Assembly: GCF_900323885.1 (NCBI RefSeq)
Contig: NZ_OOHJ01000015.1
Coordinates: 124,001-188,000 of the forward strand
Source of the DNA: [Actinomadura] parvosata subsp. kistnae
Lineage (GTDB): Bacteria > Actinomycetota > Actinomycetes > Streptosporangiales > Streptosporangiaceae
Length of the DNA: 64,000 nt
Direction: 5' to 3'
Shown: piece by piece, positions 27,183 to 39,100 of the stretch
Position numbering within the stretch: the first letter of the stretch is position 1
How the letters are laid out: every line of letters begins with the position of its first letter
Position numbers and translations under genes: made by a program
Notes under the pieces: generated by a model
What the model was told of the DNA's origin: nothing
The model's input: the letters and a program-made list of their open reading frames with translations, nothing else
The model's database searches: none

Positions 27183-28424
27183 CTACGGCTTGCCGGCCAG
27201 GATCCGCCCGTCGTCGGCGATGGCGGGGAAGGCGCCGGTGTCGACGATGCCGTGCTGCTGGTACAGCGCCTCGATGAGCGCGTGCGCCTGCGGCTCCAGC
27301 TTCCACAGCGCGCGGTACTCGCGCGCGGTGGGCAGCGGGATGCCGATCTCCTGGGCGATGTCCACGGTGCGCGGCACGATGCCCTTGGCGATCTGCCGGT
27401 CCCAGAACTCGCGGGCGGCCCGCATGCGCGCGGCCCGCTCGGCGGTGCTGACGACCTGCGGCGTCGTGTCGAACACCACGGCGTCCTCGTCCTCCTCCTC
27501 GACCAGCTCGGCCAGCGCGGCCGGCAGCGCGGGGCGGGCGGGCACGGGGTGGTGGTCGGCCTCGGGCTCCCAGGGGACGCGGGGGTCGGCGTCGATGAGC
27601 GCGGAGGTGTTGTAGAGGGCGGCGATCTGGGCCAGCAGGGCCTCCTGCCGCTGCGGGTCCACGGCCAGGCCGGTGTGCTCGACGGCCTGGTCCATGGCCT
27701 TGTCGAGCTTGGCGAGCGCGGCGCGCATCTTGCGCTCGGACGCGCCCGCCTCGCGCAGCGCCTTGGCCCTCTTGGCGGCCAGCGCGACCCGGGTGAGCCT
27801 GCGGTGGGCGTCGACCTCGCTGGCCGTACGGTCGCTGACCTCGGCCAGCCCGAGCCGGACCAGCAGCCGCTCGGGGGTGAGCCGCCAGTTGATGCGGCCG
27901 GTGCCGCGGATGCGGTGGCGCTCGATGGCCATGCCGCGCTCCCACAGCCAGGCGGCCACCAGCGGGGCGGCCAGGCGGAAGACGGCTTCGGGCAGGCTGC
28001 GCGCGTCCATGGAGGACAGCACGGCGGTCAGGCAGGTCAGGGCCCACACGGCGATGCCGTCGATGCCGGCCGAGAAGTTCTCCCGCATGTTGCGGCGGGC
28101 GCGTACGGCGGAGGTGATGATCGCGACCTCGATGAACGCGAACAGCAGTAACCGCAGCGGCCCGTTCATGCCCAGCACGTCCCCGGAGAAGCGCCACATG
28201 CCCTGCGCGGAGACGCCGGTGGCGATGGAGGCGGCCACGATGGTCAGCACGTCCTCGACGGGCCGCGGGGCGACGTACCTGCTGAACAACCAGGACACGG
28301 CGCGCCAGGCGACCCTGAGCACCAGGACCGCGAGCACCAGGCCGATCAGGCTCAGCAGCGTGATGACGGCGGTGGCGAGCGGCTTCTCGGTGATGAAGGC
28401 TGTTATTTCCTCAAATGTCGGCAT
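27183..28424 (-). CDS. membrane protein with cytoplasmic helix-turn-helix-like tail
   Basis: The 413-residue protein begins with a membrane helix (ATAVITLLSLIGLVLAVLVL) and at least three more hydrophobic segments up to about residue 150 (LRLLLFAFIEVAIITSAV, IAVWALTCLTAVLSSMDA, LAAPLVAAWLWERGMAIER). A long charged helical region follows (VALAAKRAKALREAGASERK), then an acidic patch and a C-terminal segment with a helix-turn-helix look (VDIAQEIGIPLPTAREYRAL). The architecture recalls membrane proteins on actinobacterial conjugative elements. I do not recognise the family with certainty. It is divergent from the holin-like gene. Confidence 0.65.
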   Translation of the reverse strand: MPTFEEITAFITEKPLATAVITLLSLIGLVLAVLVLRVAWRAVSWLFSRYVAPRPVEDVLTIVAASIATGVSAQGMWRFSGDVLGMNGPLRLLLFAFIEVAIITSAVRARRNMRENFSAGIDGIAVWALTCLTAVLSSMDARSLPEAVFRLAAPLVAAWLWERGMAIERHRIRGTGRINWRLTPERLLVRLGLAEVSDRTASEVDAHRRLTRVALAAKRAKALREAGASERKMRAALAKLDKAMDQAVEHTGLAVDPQRQEALLAQIAALYNTSALIDADPRVPWEPEADHHPVPARPALPAALAELVEEEDEDAVVFDTTPQVVSTAERAARMRAAREFWDRQIAKGIVPRTVDIAQEIGIPLPTAREYRALWKLEPQAHALIEALYQQHGIVDTGAFPAIADDGRILAGKP

Positions 28425-28625
28425 CAGTCACTATCCGTGAGGCTCAAACTCCGGCTCTATGCGACGAGATCATCGCAGAATGTCGCCATCTTGTACGCCA
28501 AACGCCGTCTGCTGCCCCACTTTGCCCACCTTTCACCGCAGTTCAGGGGACTTGACGGCGCGTGTATCAGGCTCGCGCCCCGCCCCTCTGCGGTCACAGG
28601 GGGTCCGACTCTGGGAGGGGGTTCC

Positions 28626-29021
28626 ATGAAGATCTTCGGCCGCGAGCCCGCGCTCGCACTCGGCCTGCTGAGCGCGGGCCTGCAAATGCTCACAGCGCTC
28701 TTCCTGCCGCTGACGACGGCGCAGGTGGCGGCCATCAACTCGATCGCCGCCGCGGGCCTGGGCGTCTGGACGGCGTTCGCCACCCGCAACCTGGACGGGG
28801 GGCGCACCATCAAGGCGGCGGCCCTGGGCTTCGCGCAGGCGGCCGTCACGCTGGGGCTGGTGTTCGGGGTGTCGCTGACGGACCAGCAGACGGCCTCGAT
28901 CATGGCGTTCGTCGCCCTGCTGGGCGCCGTACTCGTGCGCCAGCAGTCCACCCCGACCGCCACCGCCACCACTCCGGCGGAGGCCGGCGGGACGGGAAAC
29001 AGCACAGCTCCGTCCATCTGA
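28626..29021 (+). CDS. small holin-like membrane protein
   Basis: The 131-residue protein starts MKIFGREPALALGLLSAGLQ and has about four hydrophobic segments (residues 9-28, 33-52, 62-80 and 85-103), then a Thr/Ala/Pro/Ser-rich tail. Proteins with the MKIFGREPAL-type start are common in actinobacteria and their phages and resemble holins by size and topology. It lies 135 bp upstream of the first CHAT gene on the same strand, with a promoter between them. It could be a pore-forming effector of the CHAT set (inference) or an unrelated phage remnant. Confidence 0.65.
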   Translation: MKIFGREPALALGLLSAGLQMLTALFLPLTTAQVAAINSIAAAGLGVWTAFATRNLDGGRTIKAAALGFAQAAVTLGLVFGVSLTDQQTASIMAFVALLGAVLVRQQSTPTATATTPAEAGGTGNSTAPSI

Positions 29022-29080
29022 CGAATATCAAAGAACGACCTTCTCGGGCAAAACGAGGTTCGCACGTTCCAGCCGCGCGA

Positions 29081-29109
29081 TTGACAATCATGGAACCACA
29101 ACTCATCAT
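29081..29109 (+). promoter_or_regulatory. sigma-70 type promoter of the CHAT-STAND operon
   Basis: A perfect consensus -35, TTGACA (29081-29086), is followed after 17 bp by CATCAT (29104-29109), which matches the -10 consensus at four of six positions. The predicted start near 29116 leaves a leader of about 40 nt before the GTG of the first CHAT gene. Confidence 0.65.
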
Positions 29110-29156
29110 TCTGAATCAGTCGCCCACGAATGGCCGCTATCCAGGGGGGAGTCGGC

Positions 29157-32100
29157 GTGCCTTTCGTACTGGAAATGAGAGATGTCCGCGACCGGGGGAC
29201 TTGGACATGGGTACTCACCACGAAGCAGGGTGAGCCGCTGGCCGAAGCCTGCATACGACTGGGCAGAGATCACCTTCCGTACCTCTACCAGCAGATCCGT
29301 GAGCTTCGTAGTGGAGGTGCGCTGCTGGCCCAGAGCCGGGCGGTCGAGGAGATCAGTAAATTCCTCACCCAGGAGATCTTTCACCCGCGGATCATCGAAG
29401 TACTGGCGCGCAACGCGCCCGCCACCGTCCGAATCAAAATTCCGCCGGCTGGAAGATTTCTCGCCGACTATCCACTCGAGCTCACCGGCGTGGGACAGGA
29501 GATATTCGCCAGGCGCGGAATCGTGCTCGTCCACGAGTTCGACCTCCGCGCCGGACCGCGGATCAAGAAACAAGCCGGTGGACCACTTCGCATGCTCGCC
29601 GTCTTCTCCGGGCCGGACGCCGCCGGGCTCGGCCCCTACGAGCAGCGTCACGAGCTCGCCGCAGCGGTACGGCACGCGGCCACGTCCACAGGCAAGAGCA
29701 TCGAGCTGAGAATTCTGCACTACGGCACCACACGTGACAGCCTGCGGCGGACCATCGAGGAGTATCCCGGCTGGGACGTGCTGCATCTGGCCGGCCACGG
29801 CACCGCGGGCCGGCTGGTGCTGGAGCGCCCGGACGGCTCCCCCGACCCGATCTCGATGGAGGACCTGACCGAGCTGCTGTTACCGACGCGCGGGCGGCTC
29901 AAGCTCGCGGTGCTGGTCTCCTGCGACCGCGGCAATGGGGTCGCGGTGTCCGCGCTGCAGGAGCTGGGCCTGGCGAAAGCGGCCGAGCAACTGCCCTCCG
30001 GCCCGCACGATGTCGTCGAGCCCGGCAGGGGTAAGGCCGTGGAGCTGGCCGTCCGGCTGGCCGATGAGCTGGATGTGGCCGCGGTGGCGACCCGCTACCC
30101 GGTCAGCGACGAGTATGCCGGCGCCCTGGCGCGTGAGCTGTACTCTCGGCTGCTCGGCTGGGGCATGCCGCTGCGTGAGGCGTTCGGCTCGGCGGTGGCC
30201 GAGGCCAGCCGCCCGGTGAGCTCCACCAGACCGCCGCTCTCCGCGGGCGCCGCGATGCTGATCGGCGCCCGTGGGGCGAAACTCAGGCTGATGCCTCCGC
30301 GCGGCGAGCTCGTGCACGAGCCGTTCCGGTCCCGGCTGGGCTCACCGCCGCCCAAACCGCTACGGTTCGTGGGCAGGACCGACGTGCTCGGCGAAGTGAG
30401 CCGGGCGCTGGCCGCCGCGAGCAAGCGCTGCGCCGTCATGTTGACCGGGGGCACCGGAGTCGGCAAGACCGCCTGCGCTCTGGAGCTGATCCACCACCAG
30501 GCCGACGCGTTCTCACGGATCGCCTGGTGGTCGGCGCCACGTCCGGCCACCGAGGCGGACATCGTGGACGTGCCTGCCCAACTCGCCGGCGCCTGGCAGG
30601 ACCGGCTCGGACTGCCGCTCGTTCGAGCCATGAGCAACGAGAGGGAGTTACGTAGGCTCTTGCCGCGATTGTCCGACGCGCTGCGGAAGCAGCGACTGCT
30701 CCTGGTGCTCGACGGTGCGGAGACACTGCTCAGCGCAGACGGCACCTGGCTGGATGAACGCTGCCGCATGCTGATCGAGGCGATCGGCTCACACGGAGGC
30801 GAATCGCGGTTGCTCATGACGAGCAGGCGAGCGCTCGACGCCCTCCCCGGGCTGGAGATGGACACCGTGCGAGTTGGCCCCCTGGGAGTAGCGGAGTCCG
30901 TCATGCTCGCCGCGCGCCTGCCGAACCTGCGCCCTCCGCTGCTCGGAGCCCGGCCGGAGGCCTGCCCACAACCCAAGGCCCCGGTGAGCGGCGCGGAGCT
31001 GGCCTGGCTCCTGGAGGAGGCCCAAGGCAACCCCCGGCTGCTCGAACTGGCCGCCGAGGGAGTGGCGGAGCCGGAGGACCTGCCCGCGGGGGACGGCTAC
31101 TTTCTGCTCGGTCACGGCGGCGACCGCAGCGAGGAGGCCACGACGAAGTTGCTGCGGCGGTGGACGGGCGAGATCGTCGCCCGGCTGGAGCCTCTTCCCC
31201 GTCGTCTCCTGGCCCTGCTGTCACGCGCGCGCGACGCCGACAGATCCCCGGCGGTGCTCGAACCCCTCTGGGACAGGCTCGGCACAGGGTCGCGGTTGAA
31301 GAGCGTCGCCAACTCCCTCATCCTGGCGAATCTGGCGGACATCGTCACGGGGGACGACGGCGCGATGGCGCTGCGCCTGCTGCCCGAACTTCCCACCGCC
31401 GCCGGCGACGAGCCGCGCGATGACGACGTCCTGCTGGCGGATCACTGGTTACGCATCCATGCCGAGGCCTTACGACGAGACGGGGAGGGCGCGAAGCCGA
31501 ACGCCGTGCGCGCGGGTCTGGCCGCGGTGCCTTACCTGGTGCGTAGAGGCCGATGGGCCGAGGCCGGCAGGGTGCTGGCACAGGCCGTCCGCCTGGACGA
31601 CAGCCCGGGGATGACCAGGCTCGCACTCGACTACCTCTCTCTGGCACCGGACGGCGCGGACGGTGGGCGGATCAACGCCACGATCCTGCTGATCCGCACC
31701 AACGAGCAGGCGAGAAGTGATCCTGATCTGGCCGGCGACCTTCTCCGCCATGCGCTTCACCAGGTGCGTGAGGAGGGTGACGAGGAGATCAGGGCCGAAC
31801 TCACCGGAGAGCTGATCGACCTGCTGGCGAGGTACCGCAGCCCCGGCGAGGCCCTGCCGTGGGCCGTCGGCGCCGTCCACCAGGTGGAGTCCGAGAGACT
31901 GAGGCTGGCCGCGGAGGCACGCAGGCTGCGCCTGCTCACCGCCATGCGGCGGCACCATGAGGTGCAGGAGCTGGCCCGGGTCCTCGTGCCCGAGCACGAT
32001 CCGGTGCCGGTCGAGCTGGAACGGTCCTACGAGGAGATTCTGCAGGCCGCCCGCTCATCGGCGTTGGCGTGGGAGCGGTGGTCGACCGCCATCGCGTGGA

Positions 32101-32966
32101 CCCACCGCATGAGCCGGCACCGGCAGCACCAGGGCGTGCAGCCATGGGCGCTGGCTCTCATCAAGATGGCTGATTGGGTGCCGCTCTTTCGGCTGGGCCG
32201 CCTCAGCAAGGCGGAGCGGCTCCTGGACGAGTGCCAGCACGTCTTCATGGCGCACCGCGCACTGCCGGAACTGCGGCTGGCCGTGAGTGCCAGAGCTGAG
32301 ATCTGCGCCAGGCTGGCGCGCCCTGACGAGGCGGCGATGTACGAGGAGATCGCTCTGCGGATCGGCTACGACGCGTACAACGACGCCGAGGACATCGCCC
32401 GCCACCACCACAACCTTGCCGGGCACCTGCGCGACGCGGGCCGGCCGCGTCTGGAGGTCGTCGCACACCGGCTGGCCGCGGCGATGTTGTACTCAGCCGC
32501 CGATTGCCCGCACCAGCTCGGTGCAGTCGTGCGGGCGCTCGCCGAGAACCTGAGTGAGGGCGGCGCGCCCCTGCCACGTGATCCGCACCTGCTGGTGGTG
32601 CCCGTGGAACACGGGGCGGGGATGCGCTTCACGAGCCTGTTCAGCACCCTGGTGCCGGCCGAGCAGAAGCGCGTGGCGCTGTTGAAGGGCGTGCTGGACG
32701 CGGTGGGGCAGGTGGCGGCCAGGGAACGTATGGCGCCCGCGGCATTCTGGACCTGGGACCCATCCGGTCCCATAGGCGCTGCCTCTGCCGGTGACGCCGC
32801 TCATGGCGCCGTGTCGTTCATCGGGCTCGACGAGCAGACGGACTGGACGCCTCTGGCGGAGGCGCTACGGCGAGTCGTACACGGCGAACGGGACGAACGG
32901 GAACTGGCAACCGGGCTGGACAAGATCGACAGAGACATCGTGGGGGCGGTGCTGCGCGGTCTTTGA
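29157..32966 (+). CDS. CHAT protease - STAND ATPase - helical repeat protein (active form)
   Basis: The 1269-residue protein starts at GTG 29157, five bases after GGGGGAG; an upstream in-frame ATG (29130) lacks such a site. An N-terminal region with the motif GTWTWVL (residues 14-20) precedes a CHAT caspase-like domain with catalytic His214 (HLAGHG) and Cys256 (LVSCDRG). A STAND/NB-ARC-like ATPase follows: RFVGR box (403-407), Walker A GGTGVGKT (431-438), Walker B LLLVLD (514-519) and SRLLMTSR (550-557). The C-terminal half is helical and TPR-like, a probable sensor. Such proteins act as switchable proteases in bacterial cell-death and defence pathways. It is the only one of the three paralogs with both sites intact. 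Confidence 0.88.
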   Translation: MPFVLEMRDVRDRGTWTWVLTTKQGEPLAEACIRLGRDHLPYLYQQIRELRSGGALLAQSRAVEEISKFLTQEIFHPRIIEVLARNAPATVRIKIPPAGRFLADYPLELTGVGQEIFARRGIVLVHEFDLRAGPRIKKQAGGPLRMLAVFSGPDAAGLGPYEQRHELAAAVRHAATSTGKSIELRILHYGTTRDSLRRTIEEYPGWDVLHLAGHGTAGRLVLERPDGSPDPISMEDLTELLLPTRGRLKLAVLVSCDRGNGVAVSALQELGLAKAAEQLPSGPHDVVEPGRGKAVELAVRLADELDVAAVATRYPVSDEYAGALARELYSRLLGWGMPLREAFGSAVAEASRPVSSTRPPLSAGAAMLIGARGAKLRLMPPRGELVHEPFRSRLGSPPPKPLRFVGRTDVLGEVSRALAAASKRCAVMLTGGTGVGKTACALELIHHQADAFSRIAWWSAPRPATEADIVDVPAQLAGAWQDRLGLPLVRAMSNERELRRLLPRLSDALRKQRLLLVLDGAETLLSADGTWLDERCRMLIEAIGSHGGESRLLMTSRRALDALPGLEMDTVRVGPLGVAESVMLAARLPNLRPPLLGARPEACPQPKAPVSGAELAWLLEEAQGNPRLLELAAEGVAEPEDLPAGDGYFLLGHGGDRSEEATTKLLRRWTGEIVARLEPLPRRLLALLSRARDADRSPAVLEPLWDRLGTGSRLKSVANSLILANLADIVTGDDGAMALRLLPELPTAAGDEPRDDDVLLADHWLRIHAEALRRDGEGAKPNAVRAGLAAVPYLVRRGRWAEAGRVLAQAVRLDDSPGMTRLALDYLSLAPDGADGGRINATILLIRTNEQARSDPDLAGDLLRHALHQVREEGDEEIRAELTGELIDLLARYRSPGEALPWAVGAVHQVESERLRLAAEARRLRLLTAMRRHHEVQELARVLVPEHDPVPVELERSYEEILQAARSSALAWERWSTAIAWTHRMSRHRQHQGVQPWALALIKMADWVPLFRLGRLSKAERLLDECQHVFMAHRALPELRLAVSARAEICARLARPDEAAMYEEIALRIGYDAYNDAEDIARHHHNLAGHLRDAGRPRLEVVAHRLAAAMLYSAADCPHQLGAVVRALAENLSEGGAPLPRDPHLLVVPVEHGAGMRFTSLFSTLVPAEQKRVALLKGVLDAVGQVAARERMAPAAFWTWDPSGPIGAASAGDAAHGAVSFIGLDEQTDWTPLAEALRRVVHGERDERELATGLDKIDRDIVGAVLRGL

Positions 32967-32981
32967 TTCATCGAGCGGTGG

Positions 32982-35549
32982 GTGGAGACGATGGTACTGC
33001 TCTTGAGGGCCACGAACATCGAGGGCGCGGGAAGCTGGCGCTGGGAGCTGACGGGCGCCAGCCAGCCATGGGATCGGAACGTCGGCCTCGATTCCAGGGC
33101 CGACGAGTACCAGGGATTCCATGACACCTACGCGTACCTGAACCACAGCACCGCCGCGGAGCGCACGTTCCGCGACGACGAGGCCAGGATCAAGCGGCTT
33201 GGCGACTGGATCGGCAACCATGCCTACGACAACGAGCTGCCTGTCCTGATCCAGGACAAGCTCGTGCGCGTCCAGATCCAGCAGAACAGCACCTCGCTGC
33301 TGGGACACGCCATGGACCTGGCCCGCATCGGCGACAGATGGCTGTTCGATCATCTCGCCGCGTTCGTGCACCAGAGCGACTCCAGCGGTGCGAAGCCTTT
33401 CGCGGGGGACAAGAGGAAAGCCGACACCGCGCGGGTGCTCGCCTGGTTCGCGGAGCCTGACCCGTCCTCTCCCTTCACCCTGCACAGGGAGCGGCGGCAG
33501 CTCGAGAAGGTGATCGACGATGCCTCCCAGGTGCCGATCGAGCTGAAGGTCCTGCAGTACGGCGTGACCCGGGACAGGCTCTTGGCTGTGATCCAAGAGC
33601 ACCCCCACTGGGACGTGGTGCACATCGCCAGTCGCGGCAGCGGGGACGTGCTGCCCCTGGTCACGGCAGATGGCCGCGCCGATTCCATCCGGCTGGACGA
33701 ACTGGCAGACCTGCTCGCGCCGACCCGGTCACGGTTGAAACTGCTCGCCCTCTGGCTCAACCGCAACAGCGCGCGCACCATCGCGCGGACGCTGCGCCGG
33801 CTCGGGATCGGGAACACGGATTCGGCCGGACAGCCGAACGACCTGCCCGCTGGCTCGGCCAAGATCTGCGAGCTGGCGTGGAACCTCGCCAGAGATCTCG
33901 ACACAGGAGTACTGGCGTTCAGGCACCCGACCACGGACGATTTCGCGGCCGAGCTGACGGAGCACTTCTACAGCGGGCTGCTCAACCAGATGAATCTCAT
34001 CGATCGAGCGTTCGTCTTCGCCATGCGTCTGTGCGGCGGCGCCGAGAGCTCCCATCGCTCGCCTTGCTCGATCGCCGCACCCGTGCTGTTCGGCGCGATC
34101 AGCGAGAACGAGGACCGACGGGTGTGCCGCGCCAGGATGGCGGCCGGCCATCGCCATGAAGTGCCCGGATACCTTCCCCCGGTGCCCGATCGCCTGTTCG
34201 GGCACGCGGACACGCTCCTCGAAGCCAGCGCGGCCCTGTTGCCCGGCTCGTCCCGTAGCGGCGTCCTGCTGCACGAGCGTCCGGGATCAGGGGCCACCAC
34301 ATGCGCGAAGGAGCTGGCCTACCAGCATCGTCAGTGGTTCGACCTGGTCCTGTGGTGGCAGGCACGACCGGATTTCGAGCAGCCGCGAGAGGCGATGCTG
34401 GACCTGATCGGGTTCTGGTCCGAGGAGCTGTCGAACTACGGGATGAAGATGCCGGACCAGCCCACGAGCAAGCGGTTCGTGCATGAGCTGCTACGCGCGA
34501 TGGCAGCGGGCAAGTTCCTCCTTGTACTAGACAACCTGGACGAGCTCTTGGACGGGGACACCTGGGAGGACGAGGGCTTCGGCATCTTCCTCCAGCGCCT
34601 GGTCTCGGCCGCGGGCCGGAGCAGGATCATCCTGGTCAGCCGCCGCGTACCGGCCGATCTGGACACAGTCCGCATGTCCGTGGTTCCGGTAGGGCCGCTC
34701 AAGGCCACGGAATCCGCTCTCCTGCTGCGCAGCCTCCCGAGCCTGCGAAAGCTGATTCATGAAGACAGACCGATGCCGTCGTTCGCCTCGGAGGCGGCGG
34801 TCACGGGAACGACTGCAGGGCCGATGGACACGCTTGAGGCGATACAACGGGAGCTGGCGGGGCAGATCCACTGCCTCGCGGGTGGCCGGCCCAAACTGCT
34901 CGTCGCCGCCGACGTACTGGCCGGGCAGCCCGAATTCGCGCTCCACGCCAGGTCGAAGCCGCACCTGCTGCCACGCGTCTGCGCGGCTCTCCAGCACGAC
35001 CCGGATTCCGAGGTCTGGACCGCTTTCATCGAGATCGCCGCGCTCCTGGAGCGCTGGGCAGAGAGGCAGGCAGACATGAAAGATCTGATCTCGCGCATCG
35101 ACGGCCTCGGTGACCTCGAAGCCGCCCGGGCCCTCGCGTACGTCCTGGAGATCGAGGACATGTCTGACGCGGAACGCACCAAGCTGGAGCGGGAAGGCAA
35201 GGAGAAGGCGGCCGTGGTCGCCGGCGACGGCACGCTGCCCGAAAGCCCTGGCGGGGATCCGGTTCATGAGGGCGAGCTGGCCCGCGGCACGCTGCGTTTC
35301 CTGGCCACTAAGGACGCCACGATGGCGAAGGTGGAGCGGGCCGTGGCCATGCCGAGCTCGCCTCTTCGCCACGATCCGCTGATCGTCGCGGCCGTTTGCG
35401 GGCTTGCCTTCCTCGCGCTGTCCCGCTTCGGCTTCAAGATCCGCAAGGATGAGCAGAGCGGCCGTTCCTACGAGATCGAGTACCGCCCCGTGCCCGACGA
35501 CGCGATGGACAAGCTCCTCGCCTTGATCAAGAACTTCATCCCCCAATGA
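32982..35549 (+). CDS. CHAT-STAND paralog with both catalytic sites lost
   Basis: The 855-residue protein is a full-length paralog of its upstream neighbour: GSWRWEL near residue 18, CHAT fold, ATPase fold. The CHAT histidine is replaced (HIASRG; His to Arg218) and the Cys position reads LNRNS (Asn260). The P-loop reads ERPGSGAT (432-439), with Ala in place of the Walker lysine, while Walker B FLLVLD (512-517) remains. The C-terminus is short, without the long helical repeats, and has a hydrophobic stretch (LIVAAVCGLAFLALSRFGF) about 40 residues from the end. It looks like a regulatory or scaffold pseudo-protease. GTG 32982 or ATG 32991 may be the start. Its stop overlaps the next gene (ATGA). 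Confidence 0.82.
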   Translation: METMVLLLRATNIEGAGSWRWELTGASQPWDRNVGLDSRADEYQGFHDTYAYLNHSTAAERTFRDDEARIKRLGDWIGNHAYDNELPVLIQDKLVRVQIQQNSTSLLGHAMDLARIGDRWLFDHLAAFVHQSDSSGAKPFAGDKRKADTARVLAWFAEPDPSSPFTLHRERRQLEKVIDDASQVPIELKVLQYGVTRDRLLAVIQEHPHWDVVHIASRGSGDVLPLVTADGRADSIRLDELADLLAPTRSRLKLLALWLNRNSARTIARTLRRLGIGNTDSAGQPNDLPAGSAKICELAWNLARDLDTGVLAFRHPTTDDFAAELTEHFYSGLLNQMNLIDRAFVFAMRLCGGAESSHRSPCSIAAPVLFGAISENEDRRVCRARMAAGHRHEVPGYLPPVPDRLFGHADTLLEASAALLPGSSRSGVLLHERPGSGATTCAKELAYQHRQWFDLVLWWQARPDFEQPREAMLDLIGFWSEELSNYGMKMPDQPTSKRFVHELLRAMAAGKFLLVLDNLDELLDGDTWEDEGFGIFLQRLVSAAGRSRIILVSRRVPADLDTVRMSVVPVGPLKATESALLLRSLPSLRKLIHEDRPMPSFASEAAVTGTTAGPMDTLEAIQRELAGQIHCLAGGRPKLLVAADVLAGQPEFALHARSKPHLLPRVCAALQHDPDSEVWTAFIEIAALLERWAERQADMKDLISRIDGLGDLEAARALAYVLEIEDMSDAERTKLEREGKEKAAVVAGDGTLPESPGGDPVHEGELARGTLRFLATKDATMAKVERAVAMPSSPLRHDPLIVAAVCGLAFLALSRFGFKIRKDEQSGRSYEIEYRPVPDDAMDKLLALIKNFIPQ

Positions 35550-37411
35550 TCGACAAGTACGGGCAGCGGCACCTGGTGCTGGAGGCCTCCGACTACCGCG
35601 CTCCCGGACAGTGGCGCTGGTCGCTGCTCGACGAGACCACTCCCGTCGGGGATCACCAGGTGAATCTCGCCCCCGAGGATGCGTGCCTCCTGCACGGCCG
35701 GCGGCTGTACCACCACGTACGACACGACACCGATCTCGACGACCTGCTCGGCAGCGAGGCACGGCTCGTCGCCGAAGTCGGCAGATGCATCGGGGACAAG
35801 TTGCTCGGCGACCTGCGCCAGGAGCTGATCAGGCACACCCCTGCCCTGGTGGAGGTGCGGGTGCCGGCCAAGGCCCGCGGGCTGCACGACCTACCGCTGG
35901 AGATCGGCCACGTCCGCGGCGAGCCGCTCATCACGCAGGGGGTCACGCTGGTGCACGCGCCGACGGGCGCGCCCCCGCTGCCCGACAAGTCGGGCGTCGA
36001 TGAGCCGCTCCGGGCACTGGCTGTCTTCAGCCTGCCTTACGACGAGGATCTCCTGGAGCTTCGTGCGCAGCGCAAGGAGCTGGTCGAGTTGTTCTCCGGC
36101 CTGCAAGCGCAGGGCCGCCAGGCCACGCTGAAGGTGCTGCAGTGGCGCGTCACGGAGAAGTCGCTCGACGACGCCATGCAGCAGGCCTTCGGGTGGGACG
36201 TCGTGCACTTCTTCGGCCACGGGCTGGTCGACGCGCTGGTGATCCAGCAGGACGACGGGAGCCAGGCCAGGCTGCGCTACACCGAGCTGCGCAAGCGGCT
36301 GGAGCCGACCAGGCACCGGCTGAAGCTGGTCGTCCTCTCATCCTGTTTCTCCGCCGGCACCCCAGATCCCGGCATGCTGCCGATCGCCGAGCAACTCGCC
36401 GCCGAGTTCGGCTGCGCGGTAATCGGCATGCGGTACGACCTGGGCGGGGATTTCTCCCAGCGGCTGACCCGGCGGCTCTACGACGCCATGCTGCGCCTGG
36501 GGCAGCCGCTCACCAGGGCCCTCCAATGGGCCGTCAAGGAAGCCGCGGCCCCGCCGTACGGCAGCGCCTCCCCGCCCCGGTCGGTGGCGGTTCCGGTCGT
36601 GTACGGCACGCGGGCGCTGAACCTCGTGCTGGCGCCGACGGTCGAGCCGCCGTCGATGAGGATCAACGTGCCCATGGCGTACTTCGAGCGCCAGCCCCCG
36701 TCCTTCGTGGGCCGGGCCAGGGAGATGGCACTCGCCGACCGCGCCATCACGGATGACGCCTCCGCGGGAGTGCTCTTCTACGGCTCGCCCGGGGTGGGTA
36801 CGACGGCGTGCGCGCTGGAGCTGGCCTACAGCCACCCGGCCACATTCGGTACGCTGTTGTGGCACTCGATCGACTTGCCGGGCAACCGCATCGCTGGCGC
36901 GCTCGACCGCCTGGCCGAGCACCTGGACGGCCAGTTGGAAGCGCTCGAGTTGCGTGCGGCGCTGCGCGAGCCCGGCAAGCTCGCTGCGCGGCTGCGCCTC
37001 ATCGAGGCCTTCCTGCGCGACCAGGTGGCGGTCCTCACGGTCATCGACAATGTCACCGCCCTCCTTGACGAGCCCAGCGGCCAATGGCGGGACAAGCGCT
37101 GGCCGGCCATTATGAACGCCCTCAGCGGCGGTGGACGGTCCCGTCTGCTGCTGACCGGCGGGGCCCTGCCACCGGGGCTCCCGACAGGGCTCCTCCCCAT
37201 ACAGATCAAGCCGATGACCCGGCGGGAGGCCGTGCTGTACGCGCGCGGACTCGCCCCTCTCAAACCGCTCTTCCACTCGGACCCCAGCGGACTGGCCACC
37301 ATCCTGACCACCGCAGCAGGCAATCCGAAGACCATCGCCGACGCGACACTTCCCATCAGCGGTACCTGCGATCCGGAGTACCTTCGAATCATCAGGGAGT
37401 TCGCCCACTGA
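35546..37411 (+). CDS. CHAT-STAND paralog, protease dyad kept but P-loop lysine lost
   Basis: The 621-residue protein starts at an ATG overlapping the previous stop codon by four bases. It repeats the architecture: GQWRWSL (residues 21-27), CHAT dyad His225 (HFFGHG) and Cys267 (LSSCFS), SFVGR box (386-390), and a P-loop GSPGVGTT (413-420) with Thr419 where Lys is expected. A hydrophobic strand ending in Asp (VAVLTVID) marks Walker B. It ends soon after the ATPase core, with no repeat domain. By motif it could be a protease whose activation does not depend on its own ATP hydrolysis, possibly through mixed assembly with the first protein. That role is inference. Confidence 0.83.
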   Translation: MIDKYGQRHLVLEASDYRAPGQWRWSLLDETTPVGDHQVNLAPEDACLLHGRRLYHHVRHDTDLDDLLGSEARLVAEVGRCIGDKLLGDLRQELIRHTPALVEVRVPAKARGLHDLPLEIGHVRGEPLITQGVTLVHAPTGAPPLPDKSGVDEPLRALAVFSLPYDEDLLELRAQRKELVELFSGLQAQGRQATLKVLQWRVTEKSLDDAMQQAFGWDVVHFFGHGLVDALVIQQDDGSQARLRYTELRKRLEPTRHRLKLVVLSSCFSAGTPDPGMLPIAEQLAAEFGCAVIGMRYDLGGDFSQRLTRRLYDAMLRLGQPLTRALQWAVKEAAAPPYGSASPPRSVAVPVVYGTRALNLVLAPTVEPPSMRINVPMAYFERQPPSFVGRAREMALADRAITDDASAGVLFYGSPGVGTTACALELAYSHPATFGTLLWHSIDLPGNRIAGALDRLAEHLDGQLEALELRAALREPGKLAARLRLIEAFLRDQVAVLTVIDNVTALLDEPSGQWRDKRWPAIMNALSGGGRSRLLLTGGALPPGLPTGLLPIQIKPMTRREAVLYARGLAPLKPLFHSDPSGLATILTTAAGNPKTIADATLPISGTCDPEYLRIIREFAH

Positions 37412-37495
37412 ACCCTCTGGCCTCTTGGTGACAGCCTCGATTCTCGCTGGTCGTGCCCGAGGGGCGGGCGCACAATGGGACGCGAGGAGGGGATT

Positions 37496-37771
37496 GTGAG
37501 CAAGCGATCGCGAAGACGCCGTGCTCTCTCCAGTGGCGCGCCCGCGTGGCCGCCCGGCTTCGGCCCCGGCGAACCGCACTGGACCGAGCGTGACTACCCC
37601 CCGTTCGAGGATCCACCCGGAGGGACGGGCGGCGTGCGGGAGCCGCGCAGGCCCAAGCCCTCCCCGCCCGCCCTGGCGGCCGAGGCCGTGCCGCCCGAGC
37701 CGCCGGTCCGCGCCCGCGACCGCACGGAGCCGCCGCCCGAGGAGGTGACCAGGGCGTTAGCCGGAAGGTGA
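37496..37771 (+). CDS. small basic/proline-rich protein of unknown function
   Basis: This 91-residue open frame starts at a GTG with GAGGAGG five bases upstream, a strong ribosome-binding site that supports translation. It begins VSKRSRRRRALSSGAPAW and continues Pro/Gly/Arg-rich, with WTERDYPPFEDPPGG. It is probably disordered. It follows the CHAT set by 84 bp, but there is no evidence that it belongs to it. Confidence 0.5.
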   Translation: MSKRSRRRRALSSGAPAWPPGFGPGEPHWTERDYPPFEDPPGGTGGVREPRRPKPSPPALAAEAVPPEPPVRARDRTEPPPEEVTRALAGR

Positions 37772-37915
37772 GCCTCCCCTGCCGTTCGCAAGGGCGGCGA
37801 GGGTGAGATGTAAATTCGTCCTTTCGGAGGGCTCCATTCACGTTTCCGGATGGGACCATCTATGCAGGGATTTATCCCGACATGGTGTGATGCATCCCAG
37901 CCAGGACGGATATCG

Positions 37916-39100
37916 ATGTCAGAGACAGAAGAGTTCCCGCTCGTCCAGTTCATGCGCGACGGGTTCGACCCCGTGGGCGAGCTCGCGCGCATCCGGGCCG
38001 AGCACCCGGTCTTCCCCATGCAGATCCCGGGCGACCAGACCGTGTACCTCGTCACCCGCTGGGAGGACGTCCGCGCGGTGCTCGGCGACCACGAGCGCTT
38101 CAGCAACGACTTCGCGGGCGTGATCGGGCTCGGCTCCAACCAGGAGGACCCGGGCGGTCTCGGCTTCCGCGACCCGCCCGAGCACACGCGGCTGCGCAAG
38201 TACCTCACGCCCGAGTTCACCATGCGCCGCCTGCGCCGCCTGGAGCCGCGCATCGAGGCGATGGTGGCCGAGCACCTCGACCGCATCGAGGCCAAGGCCG
38301 CGGCCGGCGGGATGCCGGTGGACCTGGTGGAGGAGTTCTGCCTGCCGATCCCGTCGCTGGTCGTGTGCGAGCTGCTCGGCGTCCCGTACGAGGAGCGCGC
38401 CGACTTCGTCAAGATCAGCAAGGACCGCTTCGACTTCACCGCCGGGCCCGAGGCGTCACTGCAGGCCATCAACGACGCGATGACGTACCTGGTGGACCTC
38501 GTCGCCAGGGAGCGCCAGAACCCGGGCGACGGGCTGCTCGGCCAGCTCCTGCGCGAGCACGGCGACGACCTCGACGACCGCACGCTCGCCAGCATGGCCG
38601 ACGGCCTGCTCACCGGCGGCCACGACACCAGCACCAGCATGCTCGCGCTCGGCACGCTGTGGCTGCTGCGCAACCCCGAGCAGGCCGCCAAGGTGCGCGA
38701 GGTCGACGGCTACGTCGTGGACGTGGTCGAGGAGCTGCTGCGGTACATGACCGTCGTCCAGGTCGCCTTCCCGCGCTTCGCCCGCGACGACCTGGAGCTG
38801 CACGGCGTCCCCATCAAGAAGGGCGAGATGGTGCTGTGCTCGCTCACCGGCGCCAACCGCGACCCCGCGCTCGGCGGCGACATGGACGAGGTGCGCCCCG
38901 GCCGCGAGACGGCGGGCTCGCACCTGGCGTTCGGCCACGGCATCCACCGCTGCATCGGCGCGCCCCTGGCCCAGATGGAGATGCGCATCGCCTTCCCGGC
39001 GCTGCTGCGCCGCTTCCCCGGCCTGCGCGTCGCCGGCGAGGTGCCGTTCAGGGAACTCGCCATCGTGTACGGCGTCAAAGAGCTACCCGTCGCCTGGTAG
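37916..39100 (+). CDS. cytochrome P450
   Basis: The 394-residue protein shows the bacterial class I P450 signatures: the I-helix oxygen-binding motif GLLTGGHDTSTSMLALGT, the K-helix ExxR in VVEELLRYMT, and the haem-binding loop AFGHGIHRCIGAPLAQME with the proximal Cys. There is no fused reductase and no ferredoxin gene beside it, so electrons must come from elsewhere. The substrate cannot be read from sequence. ATG 37916 gives the usual N-terminus. It ends 18 bp before the HAD-like gene. Confidence 0.95.
   Translation: MSETEEFPLVQFMRDGFDPVGELARIRAEHPVFPMQIPGDQTVYLVTRWEDVRAVLGDHERFSNDFAGVIGLGSNQEDPGGLGFRDPPEHTRLRKYLTPEFTMRRLRRLEPRIEAMVAEHLDRIEAKAAAGGMPVDLVEEFCLPIPSLVVCELLGVPYEERADFVKISKDRFDFTAGPEASLQAINDAMTYLVDLVARERQNPGDGLLGQLLREHGDDLDDRTLASMADGLLTGGHDTSTSMLALGTLWLLRNPEQAAKVREVDGYVVDVVEELLRYMTVVQVAFPRFARDDLELHGVPIKKGEMVLCSLTGANRDPALGGDMDEVRPGRETAGSHLAFGHGIHRCIGAPLAQMEMRIAFPALLRRFPGLRVAGEVPFRELAIVYGVKELPVAW

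Follow-up and report, generated by a model that had tools for sequence, protein, structure and literature searches.

An 8.4-kb block of three CHAT-STAND genes may represent one accessory, NLR-like and protease-based conflict system working as a hetero-oligomer, a function that we infer with a probability of about 45 %. The block lies in a 64,000-nt stretch of DNA from the soil actinobacterium [Actinomadura] parvosata subsp. kistnae (contig NZ_OOHJ01000015.1), the whole of which is the window analysed here (Table 1). As the initial annotation had described, genes 1, 2 and 3 are consecutive and all on the + strand, the last two overlapping by four bases at an ATGA junction, and each combines an N-region with a CHAT protease-like and a STAND NTPase domain; coordinates, strand and order agreed on checking. 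The hetero-oligomeric switch that it proposed fared less evenly: the single block, a dead member modelled as folded and the recurrence of paralogues lacking the TPR tail (TPR-less) speak for it, whereas neither a conserved gene order, among the loci opened, nor a recent local duplication found support. New in this analysis are a small CHAT-associated domain and the presence or absence of the block among congeners.

That the three genes form one block is supported, because the DNA inserted or deleted here is just these genes, with one upstream promoter-like site and the ATGA overlap. The promoter-like sequence is the sole sigma-70-like site within 28900-37900 (mean in shuffles, 0.4). Gene 1 starts with GTG, preceded by GGGGGGAG 5 nt upstream and by an in-frame ATG at 29130, and gene 2 starts with GTG 15 nt past the gene 1 stop. 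The two flanking genes are neighbours in congeners: 50 of 53 have both on a single contig, and among those 50 the spacing has a median of 599 bp (41 of them under 1.5 kb, maximum 7.6 kb) against 9425 bp here. Homology to the nearest congener (G049) stops on the left at 29021 and resumes on the right at about 37364-37411, and the difference between the two genomes there is confined to genes 1-3 plus the sequence ahead of them; neither an integrase nor a transposase was found inside the block. The otherwise empty G049 site holds a remnant of the gene 3 end, which aligns locally with a score of 34 where 2000 dinucleotide shuffles reached 26 at most; no such match was found in G004, G039 or G023. 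This remnant suggests that the block was present in the common ancestor with G049 and was deleted nearly whole in the latter. The intergenic site (28437-37850) varies in content, as 9 of the 50 congeners hold 1.7-7.6 kb there, some with unrelated genes, and it may therefore be a tolerant insertion site.

The three proteins match one another by pairwise BLASTP at E 8e-36 or better, and a CHAT-STAND profile spans them almost end to end at 6e-229 or better, values that are not independent as all three are rows of that profile. In Pfam, genes 1 and 3 exceed the PF12770 (CHAT) cut-off of 24 bits (E 1.1e-14, 55.1 bits, and E 3.9e-17, 63 bits, respectively), and gene 1 also has AAA_16 above cut-off (5.9e-10). 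Gene 2 remains below the curated cut-offs for CHAT (0.014, 15.2 bits) and below those for NB-ARC (0.046), but is modelled by AlphaFold with a complete CHAT plus STAND fold. The complementary protease/ATPase motif states claimed earlier were recovered, namely intact/intact in gene 1, lost/lost in gene 2 and intact/lost in gene 3; the His-Cys dyad, which we take to be catalytic, and the Walker motif names are family knowledge, while the conservation of these residues was itself measured. Besides its dyad, gene 1 possesses both Walker A K437 and Walker B D519 in its STAND domain. Gene 2 carries Arg for the catalytic His (R218), Asn for the Cys (N260) and Ala for the Walker Lys (A438), and gene 3 combines an intact H225/C267 dyad with Thr419 for the Walker A Lys, Gly539 for a conserved STAND Arg and the lack of a tail. 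The Walker B Asp is retained in all three genes, and the Arg in genes 1 and 2. Gene 2 is thus, as modelled, CHAT-like by fold and, by motif, no active CHAT peptidase.

Only gene 1 unites effector, STAND and a candidate repeat sensor on one chain. Of the helical-repeat sensor assigned to it, the long tail (~620 aa) is indeed found in gene 1 only, whereas its repeat nature is supported through relatives: no Pfam TPR was detected in the gene 1 tail up to E 0.1, and TPR_12 appeared at E 2e-5 or better in three of nine relatives' tails scanned (L107, 5e-14; L113, 2.3e-8; L082, 1.8e-5). The sensor reading therefore rests on homology.

A feature overlooked by the initial annotation is a small domain at about residues 691-855 of gene 2, which relatives encode as a gene of its own of about 150-180 aa. 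No match to it was found in Pfam or, by sequence, in the PDB up to E 1, nor in NCBIfam under 0.17. Its members have in common a 19-residue stretch with a mean hydropathy of 1.5-2.1, and a low-confidence model predicts a hydrophobic helix, a beta-hairpin and a further helix. An identification as EACC1 (PF19953) was rejected, as aligning the small-domain alignment with eight EACC1 sequences by hhalign gave a probability of 0.8 %, and there was no Pfam match. Beyond its own genome, the domain occurs in 11 genomes (searched: 341 genomes of the family and 394 of the class, in overlapping sets). It adjoins CHAT-STAND genes or their remnants in G150, G347, G393, G452, G657, G065 (broken), G576 and G488 (both remnants), and in G254 only 7 bp separate it from a downstream 1141-aa gene which ends in CHAT (Pfam 2.4e-39) and has no match to the CHAT-STAND profile. 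No CHAT gene stands beside it in G437 and G601, the latter a doubtful member whose single match (E 3e-4) was lost with a better profile. CHAT linkage thus amounts to nine of 11 genomes, or five of seven once the four genomes whose copies are rows of the first profile are set aside. At L141:9659-13544, a small-domain gene precedes, by 7 bp, a CpXC-like/CHAT gene without a match to the CHAT-STAND profile. In both Geodermatophilus species a TPR-less gene is followed by the small gene, and gene 2 therefore has the look of this pair joined in a single polypeptide that has lost its enzyme sites. The label "scaffold" given to gene 2 is accordingly better replaced by that of a dead CHAT-STAND protein carrying a CHAT-associated small component, and the domain offers a handle for finding CHAT protease partners that present profile libraries miss.

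Table 1. Features of the three-gene block and its surroundings (positions in the window)
Feature	Position	Strand	Remark
Flanking gene	27183-28424	reverse	
Extra DNA relative to congeners (three-gene cassette)	29022..37411	+	right edge approximate, 37364-37417 by relative
Promoter-like TTGACA-17-CATCAT, 5' of gene 1	29081..29109	+	
Gene 1, CHAT (H214, C256), STAND (K437, D519), ~620-aa tail; sensor candidate	29157..32966	+	1269 aa
Gene 1 catalytic His214 codon	29796..29798	+	
Gene 1 catalytic Cys256 codon	29922..29924	+	
Gene 1 Walker A GGTGVGKT, Lys437 intact	30447..30470	+	
Gene 1 C-terminal tail	31101..32963	+	homologous to tails with Pfam TPR; matches L055 and L062 genes over the full length by BLASTP
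Gene 2, pseudo-CHAT, pseudo-STAND, C-terminal small domain	32982..35549	+	855 aa
Gene 2 Arg218 in place of catalytic His of relatives	33633..33635	+	
Gene 2 Asn260 in place of catalytic Cys of relatives	33759..33761	+	
Gene 2 Ala438 in place of Walker A Lys of relatives	34293..34295	+	
Gene 2 C-terminal ~165 aa holding the small domain	35052..35546	+	in relatives encoded on its own, ~150 aa
Most hydrophobic 19 residues of the small domain, aa 800-818	35379-35435	+	
ATGA stop/start overlap of genes 2 and 3	35546..35549	+	
Gene 3, CHAT (H225, C267), STAND with Thr419 and Gly539, tail-less	35546..37411	+	621 aa
Gene 3 catalytic His225 codon	36218..36220	+	
Gene 3 catalytic Cys267 codon	36344..36346	+	
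Gene 3 Thr419 in place of Walker A Lys of relatives	36800..36802	+	
Gene 3 3' end, remnant in otherwise empty G049 site	37373..37411	+	~39 bp
Flanking gene, putatively cytochrome P450-like	37850-39100	forward	

In the system that we propose, gene 1 would be the receptor, its helical tail sensing an intruder, its intact STAND NTPase driving assembly as in the family, and its CHAT protease being competent by motif. Gene 2 would keep its CHAT and STAND folds as interaction surfaces and bring in the small CHAT-associated domain, acting as an adaptor, possibly at the membrane, or as the first substrate. Gene 3 would be a sensor-less, switch-dead protease that fires only inside an assembly nucleated by gene 1, and as its output the system would cut a target of host or phage origin, and the infected cell would stop growing or die; no substrate gene was found in the block. 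A bolder and distinctly more tentative version sees here a bacterial counterpart of the caspase/pseudo-caspase logic of animals: sensing with ATP switching, an inactive adaptor bearing a new CHAT-associated domain of membrane or adaptor type, and a switch-less protease would be split over three co-assembling paralogues of one receptor family, the adaptor domain, fused here and free in relatives, being a constant CHAT partner in actinobacteria. If so, divided labour and pseudo-enzyme subunits of the kind seen in animal apoptosis would also evolve among the NLR-like receptors of bacteria, here in a compact three-gene form.

Relatives are sparse. A first scan of genome contigs with gene 3 alone retrieved no relative, and a plasmid collection held no gene 3 match; in genome searches, gene 3 matched 14 of 148 relatives (strongly only G065, G073, G060 and its own genome) and gene 2 matched 18 of 394 genomes of the class, loci being opened for matches with E no higher than 1e-14. 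At E 1e-30 the family profile found two of 396 genomes of the phylum, its own included. The PDB searched by sequence gave none for gene 1, and only STAND/AAA chains for the family profile. In a scan of named genomes, 52 loci fell into 49 places, two arrays being hit several times. Homologues do not occur merely as isolated single genes, since seven of the 49 places hold at least two copies (one of the seven involving a remnant), counts that are lower bounds because contigs are often short: Geodermatophilus obscurus (at least seven in a row), G. siccatus (at least four and a fragment), Streptomyces bungoensis, Lentzea californiensis, a Bryobacterales metagenome-assembled genome, Actinomadura madurae and Planomonospora venezuelensis (the remnant). 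An intact TPR-less copy stands beside full-length ones in three of the 49, namely G. obscurus, G. siccatus and the Bryobacterales genome; a 762-aa candidate (L101) was excluded from this count, as its tail runs on in another frame. The G. obscurus array (L112, L108, L098) also has one Cys-less member (1487-aa open reading frame), one His-less member (1319-aa open reading frame) and one TPR-less member followed by the small gene. The Geodermatophilus arrays offer a natural series in which intact members occur alongside others lacking the Cys, the His or the tail.

Divergence "after duplication", if taken as a recent local event, is not borne out. Whole-region identity of genes 1-3 to one another is 26.8-32.2 %, as compared with 35.2-41.6 % to the best outside homologue, and also lies below each gene's own median over 61 other rows (31.6-35.5 %). 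Because every one of the three is more similar to homologues from outside the cassette than to the other two, recent local duplication was rejected, and the three genes look like old paralogues. In a 62-row tree, from which same-locus duplicates and rows with fewer than 500 of 635 columns had been dropped, genes 1-3 have very long branches, and their grouping in one clade is neither shown nor rejected (approximately unbiased test, p-AU 0.065), whereas the TPR-less genes of Geodermatophilus and Bryobacterales are placed with their own neighbours.

An unlikely alternative, and the one that survives best, is decay, with gene 1 as the sole working receptor and genes 2 and 3 as tandem copies on their way out. 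Sister cases of decay exist, such as the second copy of Planomonospora (L084/L055), a 279-aa remnant, and broken copies in G065, G576 and G488; no orthologues of genes 2 and 3 were found among the relatives searched; and both genes have lost more conserved CHAT columns (14/45 and 11/45) than gene 1 (9/45), where other members keep a median of 98 %. Decay nevertheless has to contend with frames that stay open for 855 and 621 codons and have a coding-like GC content at third codon positions (0.86 and 0.90), with the ATGA junction and with the intact protease dyad of gene 3. Four-fold sites of the flanking genes differ by 0.15-0.17, and in a neutral simulation with 0.08 substitutions per site on one branch, the share of runs that ended without a stop was 2.8 % for gene 2 and 7.6 % for gene 3; under the assumptions of that simulation, these low odds support, without proving, selection on genes 2 and 3. 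Comparable TPR-less genes also count against decay. Between the two Geodermatophilus species, the ratio of non-synonymous to synonymous substitution rates was 0.10 (YN00) or 0.32 (NG86) for the TPR-less pair, 0.12 or 0.38 for a full-length pair and 0.14 or 0.58 for the small genes, and the TPR-less gene is, by these estimates, under purifying selection.

Several points weigh against the hetero-oligomeric conflict system. The conserved three-gene order which had been expected across genomes did not emerge, as no second case of the exact cassette was found among the loci opened. Loss of the ATPase is, as far as the sequences tell, no fixed trait of TPR-less members, because the G. obscurus orthologue retains the Walker Lys, whereas in that of G. 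siccatus a Thr replaces it, just as in gene 3. His, Cys or Walker Lys is lost in four of 59 rows from outside the window, three in Geodermatophilus arrays and one in a single gene; an enrichment of degenerate members in arrays was not significant (3/21 versus 1/38 singles, p 0.12). Active relatives were among the rows supplied to AlphaFold for gene 2, an input that tilts the model towards an intact fold. Finally, selective inactivation of gene 2 is not demonstrated, because its losses lie amid wide divergence: the chance of two given residues falling among the 14 of 45 lost columns is 9 %, and the loss of both catalytic residues could belong to general drift.

A dead paralogue may also serve as a brake, as when c-FLIP restrains caspase-8. 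Gene 2, and perhaps gene 3, could restrain gene 1 in resting cells or bait phage inhibitors without any productive protease assembly, which we consider rather improbable. The dead CHAT and dead STAND of gene 2, modelled as folded, would suit such a role, and PMC7159879 describes inactive enzyme copies as common in related conflict systems, where they are read as dominant-negative or decoy. However, a brake alone leaves the intact protease of gene 3 unexplained and gives no account of why gene 2 carries a domain for which other genomes have a separate, CHAT-linked gene.

The cassette is a variant of known conflict systems, and among those closest to it are the tripartite antiviral STAND/bacterial NACHT (NLR-like) proteins, with which gene 1 has in common an N-terminal effector, a central STAND NTPase and a C-terminal helical tail. 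In contrast to these, its effector is CHAT, and two extra tail-less, motif-degenerate CHAT-STAND genes are present. The EACC1-caspase two-gene systems (Kaur et al. 2020, PMC7159879), in which EACC1 is described as a one-helix constant partner of caspases, similarly pair a caspase-superfamily protease with a small domain of one hydrophobic helix and alpha/beta flanks and employ inactive enzymes as parts, whereas here the small domain is not EACC1 and shares a chain with a dead protease, and CHAT is joined to STAND. Inactive STAND modules are likewise components of the iSTAND conflict systems (PMC7159879, PMC8195603), although here the inactive module is itself a member of the CHAT-STAND family and no MoxR-vWA partners occur in the cassette. 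TPR-CHAT Csx29/Craspase and SAVED-CHAT have the CHAT fold in common with it, but the cassette would be regulated through STAND and has no CRISPR or SAVED part: no Cas7-11 partner or fused SAVED domain was found in the three proteins, for which PADLOC had no match in genes 1 and 2 and, in gene 3, just a SAVED_CHAT match that was weak (E 0.007). CHAT proteases in NLR-like proteins and in gasdermin control are mentioned in PMC10197012; no gasdermin gene lies in the block, which holds three genes only, while the genome outside it was not searched for gasdermins. Literature searches on CHAT with STAND, pseudoproteases and hetero-oligomers, covering paper listings and passages of PMC7159879, PMC8195603, PMC10907252 and PMC10197012, brought up no paper on a three-gene set of this kind.

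Defence context comes from relatives. In Actinomadura xylanilytica (L076:14-17138, the same place as L103), PADLOC recognized a MADS-like operon in which mad7-like and mad8/DndH-like genes precede a CHAT-STAND gene and the small gene, followed by mad2, mad3, mad4 and a mad5-like gene, whereas the three proteins of the cassette have no PADLOC mad match. In Planomonospora venezuelensis, an AbiEi/AbiEii pair (L084:13951-15510) lies between the full-length CHAT-STAND gene and the second-copy remnant. That the cassette serves a filamentous actinomycete as a signalling module in house-keeping or development is very unlikely, for although it lies outside any recognised defence island and has just that weak PADLOC match, its presence or absence at a conserved site, its sparse distribution, the transposon-split and multi-copy relatives and the MADS and AbiE contexts all speak against it.

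Two further loci deserve mention. In A. madurae (L119:9689-20690), a CHAT-STAND gene, a STAND-TPR gene without a CHAT match and another CHAT-STAND gene lie in a row, and at L061:11972-13255 a Mutator-family transposase gene on the opposite strand splits a CHAT-STAND gene.

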